From positions 1 to 30,294 of IMG/VR virus record IMGVR_UViG_3300030101_000584: 30,294 nucleotides of DNA. The stretch is one strand, 5' to 3'. Origin of the DNA: a virus. Below the pieces are notes generated by a model. That model was not told the origin of the DNA and did not search any database. It was given only the letters and a program-made list of their open reading frames with translations. Position numbers and translations under genes: made by a program. Of this stretch, positions 883-30,256 are shown piece by piece. Position 1 is the stretch's first letter; every line of letters starts with the position of its first letter.

Positions 883-3381
883 TCATTCAATCGCCGCTGA
901 ATAACGTGGCGCTCTTGTCGGCGCTGTATCACCCGGACCCCACCAGTATTTTTGACCAAAATCCCTACGATACTTTGTTTCTGCCCTACGAAACTTAGAC
1001 CGCGCTTTTGGATCTGTCATAAGCTGTAGTTGATCCCATACTTTGCGTTCTAATGCTAACCTTGCATACCACAAAGACGAACCGGGTAAATATCTTTGCG
1101 TAAATTTAACTAACTCACCAGCTGCGTTTGTATCGTCACCAGTAGCAGCTTGATATAAGTTACCAACACTTAATTTTAAAATATCATCGCCAAAACCAGC
1201 AACAGGTCCAGCTATAGTTTCTGCTAAACCACCGCCAAATCTATTTGTTCCAGAGTTTAGAAAATCACCAAAGATACCTAGACCACCGCCTTGCATAAAT
1301 GCGGCAAACCAGAACTTTGCAGTTTCTTCACTATCACCAAACATATTACGCGGATCACGACCTTTAGATATTTCTTTAAGTTGCAATGCTAACGCACCCA
1401 TCATTGTAGTAGAAATAAGTAAGTTCGCGTAGTAACCACCTTTGCTTGATGTTTTATCTAACGTCATGCCGCGCATCAAATGTGTATTTACAACAGTAAC
1501 GCCAAAGTTTTTATACATTGCAAAAGACCGCGATAACTCACCTGTAACTGTTCCGGGCTGACTGTCACCTGTGAGAAATACACGACCTCTCAGTGAATTA
1601 GATGGCACAGCAAAGTTTGTTTCGGTATTAATCATTTCTAAATACCGAGTTGCTACACTTTCTCTTAAACTAGGGTCTAAATCTGCACGATCCATAAGAT
1701 CAGTAGGTCTTATAAATTTTGCACCTTTTTCATCATATGGGTTTGTTGCGCGTATAACATCCCAATCAGATTGATTTATGTTGTAACGTTGCAACGTAGA
1801 TTTAAAATTTGGATCTAAATCGTTAAAACCTTTGGCAGCGTTACGCCCAACAAACTGTTGAAACTCCATACCAAAAGCCCAACGCCCGGCAGAAGTCATT
1901 GGCGATAGAAAAGAAGCGCGCATTACAAAATCAGATATACGCCTAGTAACTTCTGGACCCGACATATCGCCAACAAAACGCATTTGCCCGGCAGCTAAAC
2001 TTGTCCAACCTTCTGCAATTAAACCAGAACCGATTGCTAACTCACCTTTTTCTTTTGCACCTAGAGGACTAAGGTATTCTAAATACTGTTGTAACGTGCG
2101 CGTTTGCGATAAACCTGTAAACTGACGCGCTAACCGTTGAAAGTTTAGATCTGTAATTGCAGAGATTGACGCAGCACCTAACTGCGCCGATTGCAGTATT
2201 TGACGCAACCCAGCAAAAACAGGTGCGTATGTTCCATCAATGGGTGCATTATTCCTACCAGTAACGGCAGCATACAAATGTTCTATTTTTTTATTTGTTT
2301 TCGCAACTGCGTTTTCAGCTTTTACGTTAACTGGTCCAGTAAGGGCTTCTGTTTTTACTTTTTTATTTAAAGTTTGCTGTAGAAAATTTACCGTTGCTGT
2401 AGGATTAGGCCCAAGTATTTCCATTAGCGCAATGTCACGCGACATATTTTTTACATGAGAAATCATAGTGTCAAAAACATTTGGATCACCAAATTGTTCT
2501 TGGTACTTCATCCAACTGTCTGCATTTTTAAAAATTAAAAACCTATGATCTTGCCGCGTATTACCTAAAGATTTACCGCGCCCACCAGCCCCCGGATTTA
2601 ACTTATTAAATCCTTCTGACGTAATACTATCGTAAACATCGTTTAACGCTAAGTCTAATTGAAAATCATTAAAAGGTATACCTGTAGTTTGGTCTATCAT
2701 TTGTGTACGATTTAATAACGGTTTTATAAAGGTTTTCCACAATTCTCGACCAGCTTTTGCAATAGTAATTCTATTGTGATTTTGTGAAATTCCGTAATTT
2801 TTCTTAAATGCAATATTGCCGCCAGCCCTGTTAAATCTTTTGCCTAACATTTTTGTTGTGCCACCCCAAGCTTCGGCAAGTTCTTTTGCGCTTACATCAC
2901 CTGTATTTTCACCAAACGCCTCTCTAACAATATTTTTAAGTTTTGCTTTGCTTCGTACATTACCTATTAGATTGCGACGAAACGTACCAAGAATTTTATT
3001 CATGTTTGCAAACGCAAAACCAGCAATAGCTTCTTCTCTTTGCACTACACTAGAAAACTTTGACATTCCATCTTGCTCAAATAAAGCAAGCGCAGCTGCA
3101 TTTGGATCTTGTTGACCTAACCTATTACGATAGCTATCTAGGTTTCTTGTAATTTCTTGCCATGTACGCATTTGCGTAATCTTTTGGCGTTTGCTATGTA
3201 ACTTTTTATTTTTAATTGCATTGAAAGCATCTTTGCCAGCCTCTGCTTCGGCAGCTGTATCGCTCATTTTCCCTTTATGAAACTCTAGCTGTTGCTCATA
3301 AACCTCGCGCACTTCCTCCGCTTGGTTTCTTGTAAGCTGATTGCCGTTTTCTAAATCATCAATACATTTTTTAAAACTCAT
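883..3381 (-). CDS. large internal virion / DNA-ejection-type protein (about 832 aa)
   Basis: I recognise no enzymatic motif. The length, the position directly before the tail fibre, and the place after two other giant proteins match the internal core (ejection) proteins of T7-like and related podoviruses, which pass into the host envelope on infection. The N-terminal 100 residues are charged and helical. The middle is mixed. From about residue 640 there are Gly/Ala/Phe-rich, moderately hydrophobic stretches such as 'LISTTMMGALALQL' that could insert into or associate with membrane. The C-terminus is basic and Trp/Tyr-rich. A GTG nine bases upstream (3388-3390) is possible, but the ATG at 3379-3381 overlaps the upstream stop as ATGA and has AAGG before it, so I prefer it. 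Translation is probably coupled to the upstream gene. The functional assignment is positional inference. Confidence 0.75.
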   Translation of the reverse strand: MSFKKCIDDLENGNQLTRNQAEEVREVYEQQLEFHKGKMSDTAAEAEAGKDAFNAIKNKKLHSKRQKITQMRTWQEITRNLDSYRNRLGQQDPNAAALALFEQDGMSKFSSVVQREEAIAGFAFANMNKILGTFRRNLIGNVRSKAKLKNIVREAFGENTGDVSAKELAEAWGGTTKMLGKRFNRAGGNIAFKKNYGISQNHNRITIAKAGRELWKTFIKPLLNRTQMIDQTTGIPFNDFQLDLALNDVYDSITSEGFNKLNPGAGGRGKSLGNTRQDHRFLIFKNADSWMKYQEQFGDPNVFDTMISHVKNMSRDIALMEILGPNPTATVNFLQQTLNKKVKTEALTGPVNVKAENAVAKTNKKIEHLYAAVTGRNNAPIDGTYAPVFAGLRQILQSAQLGAASISAITDLNFQRLARQFTGLSQTRTLQQYLEYLSPLGAKEKGELAIGSGLIAEGWTSLAAGQMRFVGDMSGPEVTRRISDFVMRASFLSPMTSAGRWAFGMEFQQFVGRNAAKGFNDLDPNFKSTLQRYNINQSDWDVIRATNPYDEKGAKFIRPTDLMDRADLDPSLRESVATRYLEMINTETNFAVPSNSLRGRVFLTGDSQPGTVTGELSRSFAMYKNFGVTVVNTHLMRGMTLDKTSSKGGYYANLLISTTMMGALALQLKEISKGRDPRNMFGDSEETAKFWFAAFMQGGGLGIFGDFLNSGTNRFGGGLAETIAGPVAGFGDDILKLSVGNLYQAATGDDTNAAGELVKFTQRYLPGSSLWYARLALERKVWDQLQLMTDPKARSKFRRAETKYRRDFGQKYWWGPGDTAPTRAPRYSAAIE

Positions 3382-10138: not shown

Positions 10139-10566
10139 TTCGCGTACCTTTCGTAATCTAAACCATCTGGTCCATACTTGTGCATTAGACCTTCGCTTGT
10201 AAAACCTAAAAACTTTGCAAGCTTATGTGCGTTTGTAAAATCTGATCTAACAACAGCTTGTACCCTTGTCAGCTTCAGTCTAGTTATTGCGGCATCTAAC
10301 TCACGTTTAACTAAACGTATTGTTTGTATCCGCTTACCTTGCATTTCTCGCGTAGGCAAAAACCAAGCTTCTGCTACACCTTCCCATACAGGCGCTAGAC
10401 CTGTAACAGCGTAAACCTTGCCATTGTCTATAAGTGCCAAACCTCTACCCGGCTGCAAATAAACAGGCATTGCAGAAAGAACTAAACCTAACTGCGAATT
10501 GTTTTGCAACGGAACCCGATCCGCTACATCTAAAACGTGAACTTTACTAAGTGGTCTTGCTATCAT
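10120..10566 (-). CDS. internal virion protein, T7 gp13-like with GNAT-type fold
   Basis: 148 residues similar in plan to the T7 gp13 family, whose members look like GNAT acyltransferases. Strand-like segments 'GLALIDNGKVYAVTGL' and 'AEAWFLPTREMQGKRIQ' come first, then a helix 'VKRELDAAITRLKLTRVQAV', and the C-terminal 'FLGFTSEGLMHKYGPDGLDY', which matches the usual end of GNAT domains (a neutral G-F-x-x-E-G-x-x-x-K-Y-G-P-D-G turn). In phages this gene sits next to gp14 and probably assists assembly of the internal core. Whether it binds acyl-CoA is unclear. It overlaps both neighbours: four bases with the upstream tail gene (ATGA type) and 19 bases with the downstream gene. Confidence 0.75.
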   Translation of the reverse strand: MIARPLSKVHVLDVADRVPLQNNSQLGLVLSAMPVYLQPGRGLALIDNGKVYAVTGLAPVWEGVAEAWFLPTREMQGKRIQTIRLVKRELDAAITRLKLTRVQAVVRSDFTNAHKLAKFLGFTSEGLMHKYGPDGLDYERYAKWKHCH

Positions 10567-12566
10567 TTATCAAAAGTATTCATCCTCGGATACAGTGCTA
10601 ATACTGTCAAAGGTAGTGGCTGTGTCTGTTGTAAGTATATTCTATCATCATCATCAAAGCCACCCGGAAACTCAACATCTTTATCGCCGGAGAAAAGAGG
10701 AACCGCCGTATCCATATCCATTGAACTATCGCGGAAAAAGATACGATCCGTTTCGGAGCTATCGTTACCTACTTCTACGCCCACTGTTTCAAATAATCGT
10801 ACTGTAATACCGTGTATTCTTTTCGGCTTGCCCTGACTTGTACCGTCAGAAGATCCGCTTTCAATGCGTAGCGTTTGCATATTAGATGTGTACCCATACC
10901 CAATAGCAGCGCTAGTTGCAGAGAAATTAAGTGCTATAGACGCGCTTGATACTGTTTTGTTCGCATGACTTGCGCCGTTAGCAAGCACAGAAACCGTTTC
11001 ACCTTCTAAATGATACAACGTACTAAAACTATTAACCGCACTGCCCGAATACGATAGACCGCTATCTACAAAAAATGCAGACGTAGTATTGCTACCGAAA
11101 TCAAAATCTTTCATGCGCTCTACATATCGCCGGGTAACACTATTGATAGTGCGTTTTACAATCATGTATAGCTCGTCATTACCTGTGTCCGTAGGTAACG
11201 TTGCAATGCTTTCGACCACTGCCGAACTGCCGCTAAACGTGCCACCTATCGTATGTTTATGCCACGCAACAACTTGCTCTTCACGCCGATACGTTAAACC
11301 TACTAGTGTGCCATCTGCACGAATAGCCCACACAATATTTTCTGGCTCTTGTTGGTACGCAAAACTTTCTAGGCCACCTTCCGTAATATGTTCTGCTAAC
11401 ACTGTAAGATCCGGCGCTTGATACCCGGCTGTATTTACTTCACCAATATATTTAAACTCTCTTACTTTTCTATTGCCGCGTTGCAGAAACAACGTTACAT
11501 CTGCGACCTGTACAGGCTCTGTATTAGCCGATCCGTAGTTAGAATACTTACGAATTTGCGTTGTAGTCGGCGTTATAGGACCGTCATTTGTAGTTGTAAG
11601 CACGTATTCACCGCCGGAAGTACCAATAGTAAGCACTCGCGTAGCTGATAAATACCTAATATTGTTTACTTGATTTGATGCAATCGTGTAAATAAGAGCG
11701 TCATCTGCGTTTGTTCCTGTAGTAAAGTTAAGATAATCTGCGCTTTTACTAAACCATAACGTTTGTGGGTTGTTGTTTGTTGCTGCAAAAACAAGTCTTT
11801 GTTCAAAAAACGTAACAACACTTGGGTAATTATCAGTACCTGACAGTGATGGATTAGGCGATCCTGTTATTGTTGCTGTGGCAAATGTCCAAGCGTTGTG
11901 ATTTGTACGCGATAAAGTACGAATTGCATAGCTTGGATGTACAAAATACATAATATCTGCACTTTGCGCGAACCGTAAATTAAATATGTCAGCCGCTGCG
12001 TATGGCGTTGCTACTTCAAATATTTCATCTACTGCCCCAGCTGACGCATATGTTGTAAAGTTTGTTGTGTTAATGTTGTTGCCAAACAAATCTTGCAACG
12101 TAAATGTATTTGTTGTGACGTTAGCCACCTTATAGTTACGACCATTTAATTCTGTCATGCCGACAACATTATCTAAAAATATTTCATCACCATTGCTATA
12201 GCCATGAGAAGATATTGTTACTACGCCGGGGTTTGCTTTTGTTACAGCTGTAATATTTTGTGCCGATCCTTTTAAAACTTGAGAGCCGTTGCGATACACA
12301 CGCATAACTTGATCCCCAAACACAAGTATGTATGTATCTGTGGTTTTAAACTGAAATGGTATAAGCCTACTTTTTACACTGCTATCTTTTACAGTGCCAA
12401 GATACTGAGTACCCGGTCTACGTGTAACGCCGCCGTGTGGTTGCACCACCATGTTAGTTAAATCTGATAAGCCAGCCTTGTATTTCTCTAGCGTAATACG
12501 CCCTTCTAAGCGTGGCGATATTTCACCAGCTGTAAATGTGCTTAGTGAAGGTGCAGATCTTGCCAT
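10563..12566 (-). CDS. tail tubular protein B / tail nozzle, T7 gp12-like
   Basis: 667 residues, beta-rich, with the diagnostic N-terminus 'FTAGEISPRLEGRITLEKY' followed by 'GLSDLTNMVVQPHGGVTRRP' and 'RLIPFQFKTTDTYILVFGD', typical of podovirus tail nozzle proteins. These form the distal tail tube below the gp11-like ring and attach the fibres. The middle contains 'FFEQRLVFAATNNNPQTLWFSKS', another hallmark of this family. The start overlaps the stop of the tail tube A gene by one base, so the two are translationally coupled, as expected for partners needed in a fixed ratio. The order gp11-like then gp12-like is the usual one. Confidence 0.9.
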   Translation of the reverse strand: MARSAPSLSTFTAGEISPRLEGRITLEKYKAGLSDLTNMVVQPHGGVTRRPGTQYLGTVKDSSVKSRLIPFQFKTTDTYILVFGDQVMRVYRNGSQVLKGSAQNITAVTKANPGVVTISSHGYSNGDEIFLDNVVGMTELNGRNYKVANVTTNTFTLQDLFGNNINTTNFTTYASAGAVDEIFEVATPYAAADIFNLRFAQSADIMYFVHPSYAIRTLSRTNHNAWTFATATITGSPNPSLSGTDNYPSVVTFFEQRLVFAATNNNPQTLWFSKSADYLNFTTGTNADDALIYTIASNQVNNIRYLSATRVLTIGTSGGEYVLTTTNDGPITPTTTQIRKYSNYGSANTEPVQVADVTLFLQRGNRKVREFKYIGEVNTAGYQAPDLTVLAEHITEGGLESFAYQQEPENIVWAIRADGTLVGLTYRREEQVVAWHKHTIGGTFSGSSAVVESIATLPTDTGNDELYMIVKRTINSVTRRYVERMKDFDFGSNTTSAFFVDSGLSYSGSAVNSFSTLYHLEGETVSVLANGASHANKTVSSASIALNFSATSAAIGYGYTSNMQTLRIESGSSDGTSQGKPKRIHGITVRLFETVGVEVGNDSSETDRIFFRDSSMDMDTAVPLFSGDKDVEFPGGFDDDDRIYLQQTQPLPLTVLALYPRMNTFDK

Positions 12567-13171
12567 TAGAAACGCGCCTCGACAAAATCATTAGCTTCAA
12601 TACGCTCTGGCGCACCTTCAGTTGCGTCCTGAAACGTACTTTCTTTAAGTTTTCTATCGTAATCAGCTGCCGATAGCTGCCGTACAGTAGTAGATCCTGT
12701 AATTGCATACGATATTTCATACGCTAATCTAGCTGCTAACGTTTCAATTAGCCCGGCATCATACTGTTGTGGGTCTGTAATCCGCGCAACATACTTGATT
12801 TTTGCAGTACCTTCGTCCGTTAATAGCTTGCGACCCTCAATAATAAACGCCGGAGTATCGCTATTACTTCGCATATTATCAAACGGAAACGTTAATGTGC
12901 CGTTGCTAAACTCTAAAACGCGCAAACAAAATGGGTCTGTAGGTAAAGCATACTGTTTACCGTAGCCGTATGTAGGCGCTGTACTTTCTTGTGCTAGCTC
13001 TGCCCTACGAATTAAACAATTCCAAGGATGCGATCTAAACACACTATCTCTTACCGCTTCGTATCGCTGGTTAACAATGCGCGCTGGTTTGCTGTTTTCA
13101 TCTAGCGCAGTAATATTAGATGCACCTAAACTGTTTAGCGCATAGTTAGCAATATCAACGGTACTTGTCAT
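12566..13171 (-). CDS. tail tubular protein A, T7 gp11-like
   Basis: 201 residues, the usual length for the gp11 adaptor ring. The N-terminus 'VDIANYALNSLGASNITALDE' and the motif 'RYEAVRDSVFRSHPWNCLIRRAEL' are the family hallmarks, followed by 'YGYGKQYALPTDPFCLRVLE'. The C-terminal half is helical ('LIETLAARLAYEISYAITGS'). The protein forms the dodecameric ring linking portal to nozzle. It is the first gene after the intergenic terminator at 13191-13217, so its expression depends on readthrough of that terminator or a nearby start of transcription. A GGAG ribosome binding site lies upstream of the ATG at 13169-13171. Confidence 0.9.
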   Translation of the reverse strand: MTSTVDIANYALNSLGASNITALDENSKPARIVNQRYEAVRDSVFRSHPWNCLIRRAELAQESTAPTYGYGKQYALPTDPFCLRVLEFSNGTLTFPFDNMRSNSDTPAFIIEGRKLLTDEGTAKIKYVARITDPQQYDAGLIETLAARLAYEISYAITGSTTVRQLSAADYDRKLKESTFQDATEGAPERIEANDFVEARF

Positions 13172-15553: not shown

Positions 15554-15766
15554 CTATCTTTGTTTTTTTCCTTCAGCCAACATACTGACGATCAATAGTA
15601 TTGCTGCGCGCTGGCCTTCTTGGAAAGCTGATTGATGGGGATCGCCAGAAACAAAAGTGGTTGTCTCAAAAGCAAAACGCTTTTTAAGATCACTAAGCAC
15701 TTGCTCCCCATCCTCCGTATTAAATGTACGTCGATAGGCGAGTTTTAATTGTTCTAATTCCTTCAT
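15554..15766 (-). CDS. Bbp19-like small virion-associated protein
   Basis: 70 residues matching the Bbp19-like pattern: 'AYRRTFNTEDGEQVLSDLKK' followed by 'TTFVSGDPHQSAFQEGQRA' and a final hydrophobic helix 'ILLIVSMLAEGKK'. The family is named after a Bordetella phage protein and recurs between portal and scaffold in such phages. Its exact function is not established. The start overlaps the portal stop by 4 bases (ATGA), and eight bases separate it from the scaffold gene. Confidence 0.8.
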   Translation of the reverse strand: MKELEQLKLAYRRTFNTEDGEQVLSDLKKRFAFETTTFVSGDPHQSAFQEGQRAAILLIVSMLAEGKKQR

Positions 15767-17376
15767 ATTTGTCCACGTTCACGCGCATCAGACGCGACTT
15801 TTAACGCCGGTGCTAGCTTCTGCGCTTGATCTGCTAAAGACGCTTCTTGTTGCGCTTGTGCTTGCGCTGCTTGCGCTTCTGCTCTTTGTCTGCGTAATTG
15901 TTCTACTTCACTTCTACTACGCACTACACGCGCCGGAATACCTGTTGTTTCGACTAAATACTGCACAAGCTTATCATCATCTAGATAATCCATTACTGGC
16001 GCTACTTGCTGCATCTGCAACAAGACTTCAAAACCACGCAACATTGATTGTAAATCTGTCATTTTCTGCGCTTTCGCTAGTGGCGATACATATTCAATAT
16101 CTATATCCTGACCTTGAAGCTGCTCCGGCGCGGCTGGGAGAAGACCGTTACGGAGCAGCAATGCAAAGGATCTGGAGATTAACGGCTGGAGCAATTCGGC
16201 TTGTAGCCTACCCAAAACAGGCCCAAGCAACCGCATCTTCTCTTCGTTCCTTTGCAAGACTTCGGTAGCAGTCATAGACGGTCCGTTTGCCATTAGCAGC
16301 TGATCTACAAAGAAAGCTTGCCTGATAGCGTTACGTCTTTGCTCTTCCATATTTAAACCTAGAGGGTTGTTTGCTCCTATCTGCAACGGCTCTAGTCTAT
16401 CTCTTGTACCTGTACGGTAAAAGTTTAAAGCCCCCGGTGTTGTCCTGACAGGCAACATAAACCCATCATCAGGAACCATTAGCGGAGGGTCGATCTGTTT
16501 TTGTGCAGCCCTAATTGTTGTTTCTGCCATTTTGTTTAGCATTTTAGTATCTGGCAGCGCGTTCATTGCCGGGCTACGTCCGTAGGTACTAACACTATCC
16601 TTAACAAAACGCGGAACCATAAACGGAAATTCATCAAAACCGCTTTCAGATAGTAGCTGTCGTGTATTAGCTGTATAGTAAATAGACGCTACAGGCTTGC
16701 TTTTCTTTGCTCTACCTTTGCCATCTTTGCGTGGGTGTACCACATGAATAATAGGATGTTCCTTAAATGGCTCACTATCTAAACTTTTTTTGATTTCTTG
16801 CGGTAAGTTTTCTTCGCCAAACTGCATAGCAATGCTACGCGCTGTTAGTTTAAACTTACGATACACCGTATCTACGCGACCTTCTGCATCTTCACTAATG
16901 CAAATTTCCGCAATATGCCGAGACGAAAACCGTAAACCTTCTGGCGCACTTTCCACATAAAAAGCAGCTGTACCGAATACAACTAAATCATAATAAAGTT
17001 CATGTATTTCTTGTTGGAAGTTAGATCTATGAAACGCTTGATACATTTGATCTATACAAACTTCTAACCATTCGTTTGCTGCATCGTCCTGTTGTAGTTC
17101 CGGGTTACGATAGCGCATAGAAAACCACGGCGTACTAGGAGAAGTAAGCATACCGTGTAGACTACTTGATAATAATTCTACAGCATGGATTGCAGTACCA
17201 TCAAACAACAACTCTGTACGCTTATCACCTTGCTGTCGTTTCTTAGTAATGTCTGCTTTTCGCGGCAACATAAAATCTGCTAGCTGTTGCCAATGGCTTT
17301 CCCAATTAGATCTTTGCGTTTGCAACGTCTTTAAACGCCTATCAAGCTGCGCTATCATAGGTAAAACTTCAGCCAT
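15763..17376 (-). CDS. portal (head-to-tail connecting) protein
   Basis: 537 residues, the usual size of T7-like portals. The N-terminus contains 'RSNWESHWQQLADFMLPRKA', then 'TELLFDGTAIHAVELLSSSL' and 'GMLTSPSTPWFSMRYR', the hallmarks of the bacteriophage head-to-tail connecting family. 'ALPDTKMLNKMAETTIRAAQ' and 'DPPLMVPDDG' in the middle and 'GPSMTATEVLQRNEEKMRLL' near residue 370 are also typical. The C-terminal 50 residues are Gln/Ala-rich and helical, likely forming the crown. It makes the dodecameric DNA channel at one vertex and docks the terminase. It overlaps its upstream neighbour by one base and the Bbp19-like gene by four. Confidence 0.93.
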   Translation of the reverse strand: MAEVLPMIAQLDRRLKTLQTQRSNWESHWQQLADFMLPRKADITKKRQQGDKRTELLFDGTAIHAVELLSSSLHGMLTSPSTPWFSMRYRNPELQQDDAANEWLEVCIDQMYQAFHRSNFQQEIHELYYDLVVFGTAAFYVESAPEGLRFSSRHIAEICISEDAEGRVDTVYRKFKLTARSIAMQFGEENLPQEIKKSLDSEPFKEHPIIHVVHPRKDGKGRAKKSKPVASIYYTANTRQLLSESGFDEFPFMVPRFVKDSVSTYGRSPAMNALPDTKMLNKMAETTIRAAQKQIDPPLMVPDDGFMLPVRTTPGALNFYRTGTRDRLEPLQIGANNPLGLNMEEQRRNAIRQAFFVDQLLMANGPSMTATEVLQRNEEKMRLLGPVLGRLQAELLQPLISRSFALLLRNGLLPAAPEQLQGQDIDIEYVSPLAKAQKMTDLQSMLRGFEVLLQMQQVAPVMDYLDDDKLVQYLVETTGIPARVVRSRSEVEQLRRQRAEAQAAQAQAQQEASLADQAQKLAPALKVASDARERGQI

Positions 17377-17564
17377 TAGTACATTCCTCCATACCCGGAC
17401 ATTAATGTTTTACGCTTTTTACTTTTAGCGCCGCCTTGTGTACGACCAGCCATACGCTGATTTAGACGCTCAACGGGATCTACTGTTGCGTTTTTCATTC
17501 TTTTTGCTGGTTGTGCGGATCTCTTACCCATAGCGCCAGCTATATTTTTTGGTCGTTTACCCAT
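17376..17564 (-). CDS. small basic protein of unknown function (62 aa)
   Basis: Very basic (about 30% Lys/Arg) with two 'MGKR' motifs, ending 'KKRKTLMSGYGGMY'. It overlaps the neighbours on both sides by one base, so it is translated as part of the head operon. The Lys-rich segment followed by a Met/Gly/Tyr tail resembles the tails of the tiny basic proteins at 27312-28048 in this same window. It may bind DNA or a virion component, but this is only inferred from charge and operon position. Confidence 0.65.
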   Translation of the reverse strand: MGKRPKNIAGAMGKRSAQPAKRMKNATVDPVERLNQRMAGRTQGGAKSKKRKTLMSGYGGMY

Positions 17565-18139
17565 TATGATATAAGCCCAGCGCTAGCTAATCCGGGTGTA
17601 GGCTTTAACAATGTACCAACACCAGTTGTTACTGGAGATAATAAACCTTGTGCCGTTGTAAGTATTGTAGCTTGCCGACCTCTTTCATAAAAATCTATAG
17701 CACTATCTTCGCCAACACCTGTGCTAACCTCTCTTGCAGCCTCTGCTACCTGTGTCCCTGTAGAAGCCACACTTTCGCTTGAAACTTGGTTATAATTTGT
17801 TGTGTCTACAGAAGTATCTACTATTTCTATAACTTCTTCTTGTACTTCTATTACATCGTTTATAGTTGTATCTTCGCCACCTGTTTCATTTTCTGTATCA
17901 ATAGCGGTAACATCTGTATCTACTGTATCTACTGCATCTACTATTTCTATAACTTCTTCATTAGGAATTTCCGTAGTTTGCGGTTGAAGGCTAGGAGCCA
18001 TTAAAGCAGCGCCTACCACCGCACCAGTAGCTGTTGCAACCGCCGTACCTACCGTACCTAAAGTTAACGCACTAGCGGCGGCGTAGCCTACTGCGCCGCC
18101 ACTTATGCCACCTAATATTACAGGAACTGCTGCTACCAT
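17564..18139 (-). CDS. unknown protein with hydrophobic Gly/Ala N-terminus and acidic repeats (191 aa)
   Basis: Residues 1-50 are strongly hydrophobic and Gly/Ala-rich ('VPVILGGISGGAVGYAAASA' and 'TATGAVVGAALMAP'), probably one or two membrane or fusion-like segments. Residues about 57-115 are acidic and carry a duplicated 'EEVIEIVD' block with VDT repeats. The C-terminus contains 'FYERGRQATILTTAQGLL', a motif that I have seen recur in small head-region proteins of podoviruses, whose role is not known to me. It follows terL by 10 bases and overlaps the next gene by one base. It may be a virion minor protein. Confidence 0.65.
   Translation of the reverse strand: MVAAVPVILGGISGGAVGYAAASALTLGTVGTAVATATGAVVGAALMAPSLQPQTTEIPNEEVIEIVDAVDTVDTDVTAIDTENETGGEDTTINDVIEVQEEVIEIVDTSVDTTNYNQVSSESVASTGTQVAEAAREVSTGVGEDSAIDFYERGRQATILTTAQGLLSPVTTGVGTLLKPTPGLASAGLIS
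17817..17962 (-). repeat. direct repeat encoding the EEVIEIVD block
   Basis: The stretch TCTACTATTTCTATAACTTC occurs at about 17817 and again at about 17937, with flanking TCTACTG/TCTGTATC minisatellite-like units between. On the minus strand both copies encode the acidic block of the 191-aa protein. The region looks like internal duplication. Confidence 0.7.
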
Positions 18140-27310: not shown

Positions 27311-27320
27311 TCTATTTTTT
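27302..27320 (+). terminator. weak candidate terminator of the plus-strand operon
   Basis: AGAC-CGTA-GTCT forms a 4-bp stem followed by A and six T. It overlaps the stop codon of the 71-aa gene and the end of the convergent 52-aa gene. The stem is short. Confidence 0.3.
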
Positions 27321-27470
27321 ATCCATCATTGACTTCGGTTTTTTATGAGACAAAACCTGACTGCTTTTTGTGTGGGTAGCACCAGTATGTAACGTACCGT
27401 CCGACATTTTATGTGTCGGTCCTTTGTACTCCTTACCGTTTGGCAAGTAATGCTTAACTCCCTTTGCCAT
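27312..27470 (-). CDS. tiny basic protein (52 aa), shared C-terminal SMMDK motif
   Basis: Begins 'MAKGVKHYLPNGKEYKGPTH' and continues 'KMSDGTLHTGATHTKSSQ', a pattern I recall from small proteins of marine phages, and ends 'KKPKSMMDKK'. Very basic, His-rich. It is the last gene of the minus-strand block; its start lies within the 21-aa gene. Function unknown. Confidence 0.7.
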   Translation of the reverse strand: MAKGVKHYLPNGKEYKGPTHKMSDGTLHTGATHTKSSQVLSHKKPKSMMDKK

Positions 27471-27519
27471 AGCCTTTATCCATCATTGATTTTTTTGGTT
27501 TACGTTTTTTTCCGTACAT
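27454..27519 (-). CDS. 21-residue basic peptide, shared SMMDK motif
   Basis: MYGKKRKPKKSMMDKGYGKG is nearly the whole product. A GGAG ribosome binding site lies 7 bases before the ATG. It overlaps the genes on both sides by 17-20 bases in a different frame. The shared SMMDK motif with neighbours argues that it is real despite its size. Confidence 0.5.
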   Translation of the reverse strand: MYGKKRKPKKSMMDKGYGKGS

Positions 27520-27661
27520 TTCCTGTCTCCGCTGCTTTCTTTGCTAGTTTTGGACCGCCAACCTTTTGCATTGTGCCATAAACGTAAGCGTCTTTCTTCT
27601 TACCTTTAAGACCTTTCTTTGTAGCGCGATCCATTAAACTTCGTTCTAATTTTTCTGGCAT
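27500..27661 (-). CDS. small basic phage protein (53 aa)
   Basis: 'MPEKLERSLMDRATKKGLKG' followed by 'KKKDAYVYGTMQKVGGPKL' matches a small protein widespread in phages (pattern SL-x-x-x-A-x-KKGL-x-G-x-x-x-x-AY-x-YGT-x-x-K) whose function is not known to me. AGAGGA lies upstream, and the start overlaps the previous stop by one base (TAATG). Confidence 0.75.
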   Translation of the reverse strand: MPEKLERSLMDRATKKGLKGKKKDAYVYGTMQKVGGPKLAKKAAETGNVRKKT

Positions 27662-27870
27662 TATGCTTTCCTCTTTTTGTTCATCATGGATATGCGTTTG
27701 CCTTTTGCTACTGCTTCAGACTTAGAGCTAGCGCCCCATGCCTTTAATGATTTTAACAACGGCGTATCAGTGCCATCTTTCTTTTTTGTTGGACCCGGCA
27801 TTTTACCCATGCGCTGTAAGAACGCTGCGCGTCTGCCACTATTCCCGGTACGTTCTGGTGGTCTAGCCAT
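27661..27870 (-). CDS. small basic protein (69 aa), C-terminal SMMNK motif
   Basis: N-terminus 'MARPPERTGNSGRRAAFLQR', a middle 'DTPLLKSLKAWGASSKSEAV', and the C-terminus 'KGKRISMMNKKRKA'. Strongly basic. It overlaps or abuts both neighbours, so it is translated within the same unit. No function can be assigned. Confidence 0.65.
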   Translation of the reverse strand: MARPPERTGNSGRRAAFLQRMGKMPGPTKKKDGTDTPLLKSLKAWGASSKSEAVAKGKRISMMNKKRKA

Positions 27871-27871
27871 A

Positions 27872-28048
27872 TCAGGACATCATAGATTTCTTGCGTTTCT
27901 TTGCGGTCTTTTCTGCATCTTTAAAATTTTGTGCAGTAGGCGCGCCAGCTGTGCCGGGCTTTCTCATTTTTTCTCCACTTCCGGCAGCAATTCTAGCCTT
28001 TTTTAACCTGATATTTTCATATAAGCCGTGTTTTTTTCCATGTGGCAT
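27872..28048 (-). CDS. small basic phage protein (58 aa), C-terminal SMMS
   Basis: Begins 'MPHGKKHGLYENIRLKKARI' and continues 'AAGSGEKMRKPGTAGAPTAQ', a conserved marine-phage pattern (G-L-x-x-N-I-x-x-K-x-x-R-I-x-A-G-S-G-E-x-M-R-K-P-G), then 'KTAKKRKKSMMS'. AGGAG precedes the ATG by 7 bases. An in-frame ATG at 27965-27967 with GGAG upstream could give a 31-residue short form. Function unknown. Confidence 0.75.
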   Translation of the reverse strand: MPHGKKHGLYENIRLKKARIAAGSGEKMRKPGTAGAPTAQNFKDAEKTAKKRKKSMMS

Positions 28049-28057
28049 TGCTTTCTC

Positions 28058-28513
28058 CTATACCATTAGTTCAAAATGTGGACCATCAATAAATGGTCTG
28101 CGGCCCTGACCACGCCGGGTATCAACGTAATCATTCATTGCAGCTTCCATTGTGCCATCCCAATGCGCTATGTTTGGAACAGTCCATGCTGCACCCCAGC
28201 GTACAGGAACATCACAAGCCCTAGCACCTTCTGCCATTGCATCAGCTATATCGTCATACAAGTTGAGTTCCCAGCTTGCCCGGCTACCAATGTAAGCCAT
28301 AAGATCTACAGCTATACCGTCAATATGCTTAGACTTCATAGTCTGACTTGCACCTTTTGCAACCAATTCTTTTTGTTCTTTAATGGTTCTAAGCCCACAA
28401 ACACAACCGAAATCAATTTTACTTACACCGATTGCGTGTTTAACAACAGCAACCATGCGTTCGTCTACACCTTCTAATCTTTCAAGGCTACGCTTTCCTA
28501 GTTTAAAACTCAT
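28058..28513 (-). CDS. endolysin, M15-family peptidase (L-Ala-D-Glu type)
   Basis: 151 residues, the length of T5-endolysin-type enzymes. Zinc ligands are visible: His 63 and Asp 70 in 'SKHIDGIAVDLMAY', and His 146 in 'GPHFELM' with the catalytic Glu 148; 'GLRTIKEQKELVAKGAS' upstream is also typical. It cleaves the peptide stems of peptidoglycan. No signal peptide, so release needs the holin genes upstream. The start overlaps the previous gene's stop by 4 bases (ATGA). Confidence 0.92.
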   Translation of the reverse strand: MSFKLGKRSLERLEGVDERMVAVVKHAIGVSKIDFGCVCGLRTIKEQKELVAKGASQTMKSKHIDGIAVDLMAYIGSRASWELNLYDDIADAMAEGARACDVPVRWGAAWTVPNIAHWDGTMEAAMNDYVDTRRGQGRRPFIDGPHFELMV

Positions 28514-28770
28514 TGCTCAACAAACTCCTTTGTTCCACACAATCTTTCGTACACCATATCACTACTATACGCTTCTGCCCATTTATTTTCCGTAAAAGTA
28601 CAGAACGCCCACAGATCATCTACATCTTGATCTATAATTTCAAGCAAGTCTTGCTGCGCTGATACAGTACCTTGCAAATGTTCGAGATCATGCACAAGCC
28701 CGGAAATATACCACACTAATGCAACTAGCTGCACAACCATTGCAAATGCTAATCCAACATTTACCTTCAT
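28510..28770 (-). CDS. small membrane-anchored protein, spanin-like candidate (86 aa)
   Basis: One N-terminal membrane helix ('GLAFAMVVQLVALVWYISGL') is followed by a short coiled-coil ('LEHLQGTVSAQQDLLEIIDQ') and an acidic segment with two Cys. Topology would be N-in, C-out. Position between the holin-like gene and the endolysin suggests a lysis role such as an inner-membrane spanin part or regulator. No outer-membrane spanin is visible. ATGA overlaps at both ends. Confidence 0.6.
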   Translation of the reverse strand: MKVNVGLAFAMVVQLVALVWYISGLVHDLEHLQGTVSAQQDLLEIIDQDVDDLWAFCTFTENKWAEAYSSDMVYERLCGTKEFVEQ

Positions 28771-29156
28771 TTTTTGCTGTCCGTTTTTTGTAACTTGTCA
28801 AATGAACGCATACCACCAATGCCAAGCATACCGAGTAACAACGGCATCATTACTGACATATCAGCTTGCGGTATTGCAAAACCAAAACCTAATGCAATGG
28901 GCGCAATCATGTAATTTATTCCTAATGATATACCACAAATCCAGCCGATAAGTGGACGCCAAGAAGCTTGAAACCAGTTACCTTGTGCATCAGCTTTTAA
29001 AATTTCTAACTGTTGCATCATCAAAGCTTGAGAATTTTTCTCTGCCATTGTTGCAATTTCGTGGGCTAACTTTGCTTTTTGATCTTTATCTTCAATAACT
29101 TTATCAAGAATATTGCTTACCGGATCTACCAGCTTTCCTAATAAATCAAACATCAA
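28767..29156 (-). CDS. holin, three-TM GTA-holin-like (129 aa)
   Basis: The amphipathic N-terminal helix 'AKLAHEIATMAEKNSQALMM' and 'ILKADAQGNWFQASWRPLIG' followed by membrane segments 'WICGISLGINYMIAPIALGF' and 'MMPLLLGMLGIGGM' match the pattern of GTA-type holins (E-x-x-A-Q-G-x-W-x-x-x-S-W-R-P-x-I-G-W). It would form holes in the inner membrane to release the endolysin. The start overlaps the previous stop (ATGA) and the stop overlaps the next start. Confidence 0.85.
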   Translation of the reverse strand: MMFDLLGKLVDPVSNILDKVIEDKDQKAKLAHEIATMAEKNSQALMMQQLEILKADAQGNWFQASWRPLIGWICGISLGINYMIAPIALGFGFAIPQADMSVMMPLLLGMLGIGGMRSFDKLQKTDSKK

Positions 29157-29500
29157 TCTCCCTCCATTTGTATGCTTGCTTTCTTTGGCTCCGCTTTTGC
29201 AGCATACGCATTAAATCCCATAAATGCAGCAACCACACCTGATGCAGCTATCACGTATACACTTGCTATATCTGTAATAAGACTAGCTGCTTTGTCAAAG
29301 CCAAGAACAGAAGCTAACAAAATGATAAACGGATATATCAACATCCCGGCAAGAGCAAACCCGGTAAACCTACGCTCCGCATTGCGCTTTAAATCCCGGT
29401 CAATCATTTCTAATCTGCGATCTTCCAAAGCCAGTTTGTTCCACTCAGCTTTTTCTATAACACCGTTATTGTTTAGATCAGCTTTCTCAAATTCAGTCAT
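29153..29500 (-). CDS. two-TM protein with EF-hand-like loop (115 aa)
   Basis: The N-terminus 'EKADLNNNGVIEKAEWNKLA' fits an EF-hand calcium loop (D-x-N-x-N-G-x-I-x-x-x-E). A charged helix 'DRRLEMIDRDLKRNAERRFT' follows, then two membrane segments ('GMLIYPFIILLASVLGF' and 'VYVIAASGVVAAFMGFNA'). A second holin or holin partner is plausible from the location; the EF-hand assignment is by consensus only. ATGA overlap with both neighbours. Confidence 0.7.
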   Translation of the reverse strand: MTEFEKADLNNNGVIEKAEWNKLALEDRRLEMIDRDLKRNAERRFTGFALAGMLIYPFIILLASVLGFDKAASLITDIASVYVIAASGVVAAFMGFNAYAAKAEPKKASIQMEGD

Positions 29501-29610
29501 TTCAAAGACCTTGCGTATTTAACCGCTACATTTTTATCGCGTGTAATTATAACAACTTTTCCGTTTTTATCATAGATAATATATTTATTACGCCACTCTT
29601 TTAATATCAC
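29497..29610 (-). CDS. micro-ORF with double start/stop overlap (37 aa, GTG start)
   Basis: GTG at 29608-29610 overlaps the upstream stop (GTGA) and its TGA overlaps the downstream ATG (ATGA), so it exactly fills the gap between two genes. The product is basic and beta-like ('KYIIYDKNGKVVIITRDKNV'). The double overlap is the chief evidence that it is translated. No separate ribosome binding site is seen. Function unknown. Confidence 0.6.
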   Translation of the reverse strand: MILKEWRNKYIIYDKNGKVVIITRDKNVAVKYARSLK

Positions 29611-29789
29611 CGTTCAATTTTAATACACACTACTTTAGAGTTTTGGCTGGTGACTAGCACCTTTGCTTCTGCTTTGCCTTGCTTACAAGCTTCTTCACTA
29701 GAGTAACTACCTACGTGGTAATGATCAAAACTTCCACTCACTAATTGTAACCATAATAGCACCCACATGATCACCAACGCCCTTGCCAT
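29607..29789 (-). CDS. small exported or membrane protein (60 aa)
   Basis: Signal peptide or anchor 'ALVIMWVLLWLQLVSGS', followed by a short domain 'HVGSYSSEEACKQGKAEAKV' with two Cys (near 35 and 55). ATG at 29787-29789; an alternative ATG is 21 bases downstream at 29766-29768 (M8). It overlaps the preceding gene by 19 bases. Layout similar to the 71-aa protein at 27095. Envelope function inferred only. Confidence 0.6.
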   Translation of the reverse strand: MARALVIMWVLLWLQLVSGSFDHYHVGSYSSEEACKQGKAEAKVLVTSQNSKVVCIKIER

Positions 29790-30256
29790 TTGCCGATGAA
29801 ATAGAAAATGCAGAACAAGATACCACCACTGAGGATAAAAATAATAAACCCAATAGCAAAGTTAATAATCGCATCTAGTTGCTCCTGTTTTTTATACAGT
29901 TCATCTTTACGCCTTTTACGTTGCTGCGCCTCAATTGCTAAAACCTCTTTCCAAGCGGATGGTCCGTATACGAAACTGATTTCGTCTTTTAAGGTTTGGC
30001 GCATCTCCTTAAATTTACGCTCATTATTCCATATCAAGATAGCGTTTTCCTCATCGCTACCTTTAAATGTTTTTTTCCAAAAGGGAGGGTTCTCCTCACG
30101 TTGCTGAAGCATAGCGAAATCCGAGCAAGCTTTGCCCCACTGATTTAGTTGCCCGGCTATATCACTTAGATCTTTACCAGCGGAGACTGCTCCCTTGATG
30201 GCTTTAAAACTGCCAGTGGCAAGAGCTACGCAACCACTGATTGTAACCGGGTCCAT
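29771..30256 (-). CDS. conserved phage protein with C-terminal membrane helix (161 aa)
   Basis: Begins 'MDPVTISGCVALATGSFKAI', with Gly/Ala-rich 'GAVSAGKDLSDIAGQLNQWG', then a long charged helical part 'YGPSAWKEVLAIEAQQRKRR' and a C-terminal membrane segment ('FAIGFIIFILSGGILFCIFY'). I recall this combination, including G-P-x-A-W-x-E-L-x-x-x-x-A-x-Q-R, from proteins of marine T7-like phages placed after the tail fibre. Function unknown. AGGCAA is upstream of the ATG. It is the first complete gene of the lysis block. Confidence 0.7.
   Translation of the reverse strand: MDPVTISGCVALATGSFKAIKGAVSAGKDLSDIAGQLNQWGKACSDFAMLQQREENPPFWKKTFKGSDEENAILIWNNERKFKEMRQTLKDEISFVYGPSAWKEVLAIEAQQRKRRKDELYKKQEQLDAIINFAIGFIIFILSGGILFCIFYFIGKWQGRW

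Follow-up and report, generated by a model that had tools for sequence, protein, structure and literature searches.

Five small ORFs close the late genes of the window (the whole stretch of DNA analysed here, a virus record of 30,294 bases), and four of them carry the same three residues, S-M-M, near their C-termini, which raises the question of what a single tail on otherwise different small proteins is for. The window belongs to a podovirus related to the HTVC010P-type pelagiphages, its portal being 60.8% identical to that of HTVC204P, and its late genes lie on the minus strand. If the ends of the record are joined, as the gene order suggests, the late genes run from terL, portal, scaffold, capsid, adaptor, nozzle and internal proteins through the lysis region to the five small ORFs, which stop at 27312 and face the plus-strand early genes in convergent orientation. 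The clade with the SMM tail consists of uncultured, probably marine, viruses of bacteria; a search of bacterial genomes with the portal for a host or prophage returned no relative. The probable lysis region (28058-30256, minus strand) contains small ORFs with hydrophobic stretches and an M15-type endolysin (28058..28513, minus strand), which closes the region just upstream of the small-gene cluster. By eye, the hydrophobic-stretch ORFs at 28510-28770, 28767-29156, and 29153-29500 are holin or spanin candidates.

Small late genes and their tails

An earlier note on this DNA had described a shared terminal motif in four of five overlapping genes. This was confirmed: all five ORFs lie in their stated places on the minus strand (27312-28048), and four carry the motif. 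The description needed three corrections: SMM lies 1 to 9 residues from the C-terminus and is thus not always terminal, two of the tails had been quoted in shortened form, and the 69- and 58-aa genes are separated by a 1-nt gap. In the direction of transcription, the first of the five encodes a 58-aa protein (27872..28048, minus strand; SMM codons 27878-27886) with the tail KKRKKSMMS, whose match to the phrog_16028 profile (E 1.3e-22) covers the body (residues 5-52) and stops short of the tail; tails of the KKRKKSMMS type were also found on this protein in L010, L013, L014, L011, L086, L087, L016, and L088. The second is a 69-aa DUF6321-like protein (27661..27870, minus strand; SMM codons 27682-27690), which ends KGKRISMMNKKRKA and has the tail KRISMMNKKRKA. 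Its match to PF19846 (DUF6321; E 1.6e-5, 25.9 bits) is under the Pfam gathering cut-off of 28.5, and a 105-aa relative in L005 scored 82.1 bits against the same family; a literature search on DUF6321 found nothing. The third, a 53-aa protein with a YVYGT-type body (27500..27661, minus strand), ends NVRKKT and has no tail. The last two are a 21-aa microprotein, MYGKKRKPKKSMMDKGYGKGS, which is a free-standing tail (27454..27519, minus strand; SMM codons 27481-27489), and a 52-aa HYLPNGK-type protein with the tail KKPKSMMDKK (27312..27470, minus strand; SMM codons 27324-27332), the last late gene. Searches of Pfam and PHROG assigned no function to any of the tail proteins, and literature searches yielded no description of such a common tail. 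Two related contigs have an inserted gene for a 240-aa protein between the DUF6321 and 53-aa genes of the cluster (L007, 6182-6904; L008, 4253-4975).

The recurrence of SMM exceeded that in shuffled proteins, and the homologues described below strengthen the case against chance considerably. When whole proteins were shuffled, any 3-mer was shared by the last 15 residues of at least four of the five proteins in 333 of 200,000 trials; when only the tails were shuffled, their lysine-rich composition being kept, a shared 3-mer other than pure K/R arose in 1,086 of 200,000 trials and SMM itself in at least four of the five proteins in 0 of 200,000. The 21- and 52-aa tails have 15 nt in common, TCAATGATGGATAAA, and the serine codons of the four SMM copies are TCT, TCC, TCA, and TCA; since they differ, the tail is not one copied DNA word. 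In the 69-aa protein, SMM may have originated by substitution inside the body, because the relatives end KRISAINK (L005-type) or KRISRINE at the site that reads KRISMMNK here.

Two other explanations were rejected. A C-terminal degron does not fit, as the residues after SMM differ in number and kind (S, DKK, NKKRKA, DKGYGKGS). The 53- and 21-aa pair is not one gene split by a sequencing frameshift in an A-run, as many relatives have the same layout, and in L010 the 21-aa ORF occurs alone.

Carriers of the tail and the virion lineage

IMG/VR homologues were collected for the endolysin, the 58-, 52-, and 62-aa proteins, and the portal. Across them the tail is degenerate: a [KR]-rich stretch, then [ST]-[MLI]-[ML], often followed by x-[SGN]-Y-G. 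A scan for KKKSMM was set against the scrambled control KKKMSM, with all figures being samples among the matches listed; in these, the frame ended within 12 codons in 45 of 121 cases for KKKSMM versus 19 of 114 for KKKMSM (Fisher p 0.0004), and among the matches listed the control had none of the gene families of KKKSMM. In addition to the phrog_16028 (58 aa), DUF6321 (69 aa), and HYLPNGK (52 aa) bodies, the carriers included the following: the YVYGT body, untailed in the window and joined in frame to the tail in L088, L097/L616 (G008), L298, and L326; a KQMKIASAAAP/NKITxADF body (L016, L264, L292); an SLYxNINKRKKAGTS body (phrog_25774; L268, L271, L331); a GKGGARKADSDLL body (phrog_28338; L292/L579); the portal-upstream NIAGxMG..QPA..VDPLERL family; and phrog_831-like proteins of 187-209 aa (L543-L558), which end RRRRSLMGGGLIR or close variants. 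In related phages the tail is thus found on eight or more small late proteins that have no relationship to each other, in line with the earlier observation that the bodies differ and the tail is common.

Absence of the motif from homologues, which the earlier note had named as a refutation of its reading, was found for many of them, most 58- and 52-aa homologues in other phages having no tail, because the bodies are widespread phage families that are tailless elsewhere. We read the tail as an optional module that accompanies this virion type, hence its absence from many body homologues. Among long records, all 12 that bear the tail have a portal close to that of the window (69-98%) or, where the portal is missing, a close nozzle (73-74% identical to the window's), versus none of 34 records picked for a related body or endolysin and having no SMM tail (Fisher p 2.6e-11; scoring as failures three tail-bearing contigs of 10-14 kb in which no portal matched gives 4.9e-9). 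The best portals of the 34 comparison records are about 30% identical to the window's; one of these records, L238, has a tail-like end, KKKSRMASAMGYGTS, and the K/M-rich repeat proteins of L322 and L349 stand outside the count. Because the records share ancestry, the link between tail and virion is an association and not a series of many independent events. Judged from these genomes, the presence of the tail tracks the virion lineage rather than the bodies.

In L184 and L238, a 52-aa type body is fused to a KQMKIASAAAP-type body. The L184 fusion has the tail-like end KKKSRMASAMGYGNS; L238, with the end given above, has no related portal and lies outside the main clade. Several unrelated contigs encode K/M/G-rich repeat proteins in which the tail is a repeat unit, KKKSMMRGGGMKKTMMRGGG and MPGMYKKPMTKMPMKAKPKMGMKKKSMMKKGY (L276, L339, L349 [81-aa ORF]; L322, 5195-5293). 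These proteins were left out of the tail carriers, a decision made after they had been seen, and the longer records G029 and G031 of such proteins have no related portal.

The tail beside the portal and as a free peptide

A 62-aa ORF directly upstream of the portal (17376..17564, minus strand; TLM codons 17400-17408) abuts the portal gene (15763-17376) and, as had been noticed earlier, ends in a related tail, KKRKTLMSGYGGMY. In its family, [ST]-[MLI]-[ML] is kept in 18/18 diverged representatives (80% identity), with serine codons from both the AGY and the TCN box (AGC, AGT, TCA, TCC, TCG, and TCT) and with TTA, TTG, CTA, and CTT for leucine. The constancy of S-M/L-M under changing codons indicates that selection acts on the residues. 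A tail-ended protein is encoded one or a few genes before the portal in nearly all portal relatives examined, G009 being a portal relative that the regular expression for the tail did not flag. In L562, L564/L573, and L579, three to five small tail genes, mostly T-M-M variants, lie upstream of the portal, so the small-gene cluster can adjoin the portal; the T-M-M variant probably became common to this lineage through one evolutionary event. The suspected tie to the virion is thereby strengthened at the sequence level, by the portal-adjacent 62-aa family together with the way the tail follows the portal and nozzle lineage. A PDB sequence search with the 62-aa protein gave nothing up to E 10, and AlphaFold2 modeled the family with low confidence (mean pLDDT 64) and an unstructured tail. 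Between terL and the 62-aa gene lies a gene for a 191-aa protein (17564..18139, minus strand) with a weak profile match to phrog_831, GRQATILTTAQGLL (E 0.0054, residues 140-178), the counterparts of which in L543-L558 are the phrog_831-like carriers listed above.

Several contigs encode microproteins of 17-21 aa that consist of barely more than the tail, among them MKKPKKKKSMMNGGYGK (L286), MHKKKGKKKSMMGGGYGK (L291), MYGSKPKKKKSMMNSYGKGK (L297), and MKKKPKPKKTIMSGYGKGK (L264), and most of these ORFs have a purine-rich stretch upstream. Between the window's 21-aa ORF and its counterparts there are 6 synonymous changes in the case of L010 and 7 in that of L612, with no nonsynonymous change in either (pN/pS = 0 in both comparisons, with some codons constrained by the partial overlap of this ORF with its neighbors). 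Across the free tail ORFs, pN/pS was 0-0.23 in 9 of 10 pairs; the remaining pair, which has three differences, gave 0.43. The free microprotein is under purifying selection in several genomes. Recent DNA duplication with no selection, the second explanation that the earlier note had set against its own, is contradicted by the differing codons and the mostly synonymous divergence. The same 20-aa sequence, MPGKKTKPKKKSMMDKGYGK, is fused to a YVYGT body in G008 (L616) and free in its close relative G023 (L603), the portals of both being 87% identical to the window's; the tail therefore exists with or without a body, and we read the G023 peptide as having arisen by loss of the body.

Candidate docking sites and alternative explanations

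The common address proposed in the earlier note is well supported as far as a virion address is concerned, because the tail recurs, its residues are selected, and its presence follows the portal and nozzle lineage, on bodies that vary and within the late operon; we infer the virion partner, the tail-channel site, and a function in assembly or in holding the DNA. It is probable that the SMM tail serves these proteins in common as a docking tag, one that is under selection and linked to the virion. The candidate partners are the portal (15763..17376, minus strand; PDB 8ck0, E 7e-88; T7 portal, E 2e-4), the T7 gp11-like adaptor (12566..13171, minus strand; phrog_394; connector 8ck1_E, E 1e-10), and, most favored, the T7 gp12-like tail nozzle (10563..12566, minus strand; phrog_376; Tail Nozzle 8ck1_A, E 2e-90), all three being relatives of solved podophage structures (8ck1 and 8ck0, which we take to be those of phage Carin-1). 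The nozzle has an insert at residues about 82-182 that resembles a ubiquitin-activating enzyme E1 domain (PDB 4p22, 2lzj; E about 4e-6) and also phrog_584, "major tail protein."

Among solved structures, the nearest precedent found is T7 gp7.3. In a cryo-EM structure, six copies of its residues 84-98 are anchored to adjacent subunits of the nozzle gp12 at the adaptor junction (PMC11784390; PDB 9jyz), the DNA end is contacted by K84 and K85, and the rest of the protein, which is basic, was attributed to density around the channel DNA (PMC11784390). Like the window's 62-aa protein, gp7.3 is small, basic, late, and encoded close upstream of the portal (the T7 order is 7.3, 7.7, then gene 8); like the tail, its C-terminus is of the KKS-hydrophobic kind and rich in glycine and serine, the protein ending KKSLSVARSSGGGINI, with the C-terminal loop KKSLSVARSSGGG and with KKSL at the start of residues 84-98. 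Unlike the tail, it has no M-M or Y-G element, and T7 has one such protein, whereas the clade has several bodies and a free peptide. We know of no T7 counterpart for a free peptide and many bodies. The resemblance to the tail comes to four residues, charge, and position, and an hhalign comparison of the portal-upstream family with gp7.3 gave no homology (probability 0.1%, E 0.54). With position and charge alike and profiles negative, the tail may act as that of gp7.3 does, but it is not established as a gp7.3.

The reading that we prefer, tentatively and at a little under even confidence when taken as a whole, is that the tail would be a portable C-terminal docking peptide for the clade's own virion, with a site in the channel and a role in DNA retention or assembly. 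Its carriers would be tiny basic late-operon proteins with bodies of their own, plus the bare tail of 17-21 aa. In the tail, which comprises a lysine-rich linker, then [ST]-[MLI]-[ML], and often x-[SGN]-Y-G, the [ST]-[ML]-M part would most likely bind a repeated site in the portal-adaptor-nozzle channel, with the lysines and basic bodies contacting the DNA end as in the C-terminal loop of T7 gp7.3, and several tail proteins might share or compete for one type of site while the tail is assembled or the DNA is retained. Docking at a gp7.3-like site in the channel, suggested by gene position, charge, and a short resemblance, is the more doubtful element, and the placement of the main small-gene cluster after the endolysin and not by the portal counts against it. 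Such a system could amount to a modular virion-targeting code, a suggestion made with similar reserve, in which new bodies are recruited to one place in the particle by gaining the tail and the bare peptide perhaps serves as a filler or competitor.

A different site in the same virion is unlikely but deserves weight: the tail could bind either the scaffold or the inner face of the major capsid protein and load small basic DNA-binding proteins into the procapsid. The capsid-targeting sequences of T4 and the cargo peptides of encapsulins would be parallels. The occurrence of one tail on many small basic bodies and its association with the virion lineage fit such loading equally, a capsid site would not restrict copy number to a few sites, and podophage PhiM1 places one virion-protein-binding module on two small proteins, alpha-claw and alpha-paw (PMC11440229). 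That module is a 46-residue folded unit on the capsid surface, unlike a short C-terminal peptide (PMC11440229), and the best conserved tail carrier adjoins the portal, although the location of a gene says little against binding to the capsid.

Binding to one host protein or nucleic acid, through which the small proteins would act on the host late in infection, appears improbable. Phage proteins that are small and basic often have host targets, and the main cluster lies after the endolysin, away from the head genes; yet the bodies are tailless in many other phages while the tail follows one virion lineage, and the most constant carrier is directly upstream of the portal. A still poorer account of the data is convergence at the protein level, or shuffling of tails, with no common partner and at most general nucleic-acid binding; lysine-rich C-termini would then be swapped by recombination or would drift to a similar low-complexity composition. 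It would explain the related K/M/G-rich repeats in L276, L339, and L349, the derivability of the DUF6321 copy from KRISAINK, and the TCA ATG ATG common to some tails of one genome, but not the purifying selection on the free microprotein, the conservation of S-M/L-M through codon change, or the want of comparable gene families among the matches listed for the scrambled motif. Scarcely credible is a nucleotide-level artefact in which the tail sequence serves the following gene as a Shine-Dalgarno or as a signal for translational coupling: the genes do overlap or abut and several starts follow purine-rich stretches, but the 52-aa gene is tailed despite being the last late gene, codons differ between copies, and divergence is mostly synonymous.

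If docking in the virion is correct, the tail leads one to expect no fewer than eight unannotated families, along with the microprotein of 17-21 aa, at one location in the particle. For most small phage genes no function is known, and a swappable, selected tail offers a handle on them; by itself it would aid the annotation of small virion proteins in a clade of uncultured podoviruses with abundant pelagiphages among its relatives, and with it the part played by the small terminase-to-portal proteins of many podophages would become directly testable.

The HTVC010P-type pelagiphages have the virion type and late-gene layout of the window, with portals about 50-61% identical in the three examined, and encode DUF6321-like and SLYxNIN-like bodies. 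No SMM tail was found in HTVC010P, HTVC204P, or HTVC028P, the terL-to-portal proteins of which end KTLLGS, RSLLGQ, KTLLG, or KSLLGG. The phrog_831 family (that of epsilon15 gp3), likewise encoded between terL and portal, has the elements STxLTG and a C-terminal [KR][ST]LLG; neither the 62-aa family nor the end-of-operon proteins match its profile, and a profile comparison of the portal-upstream family with phrog_831 gave no homology (probability 0.2%). Small terL-to-portal proteins with [KR][ST]LLG-like C-termini were found in epsilon15 (gp3), phiV10, BIP-1, Flu_PA14_4, and HTVC010P. An STxLTG-like element and a C-terminal KTLLG are common to terL-to-portal proteins of distant podophages, with examples in L002 at 2216-2437 and 2640-2882 (HTVC010P), L580 at 3037-3243 (epsilon15 gp3), and L585 at 1118-1372.
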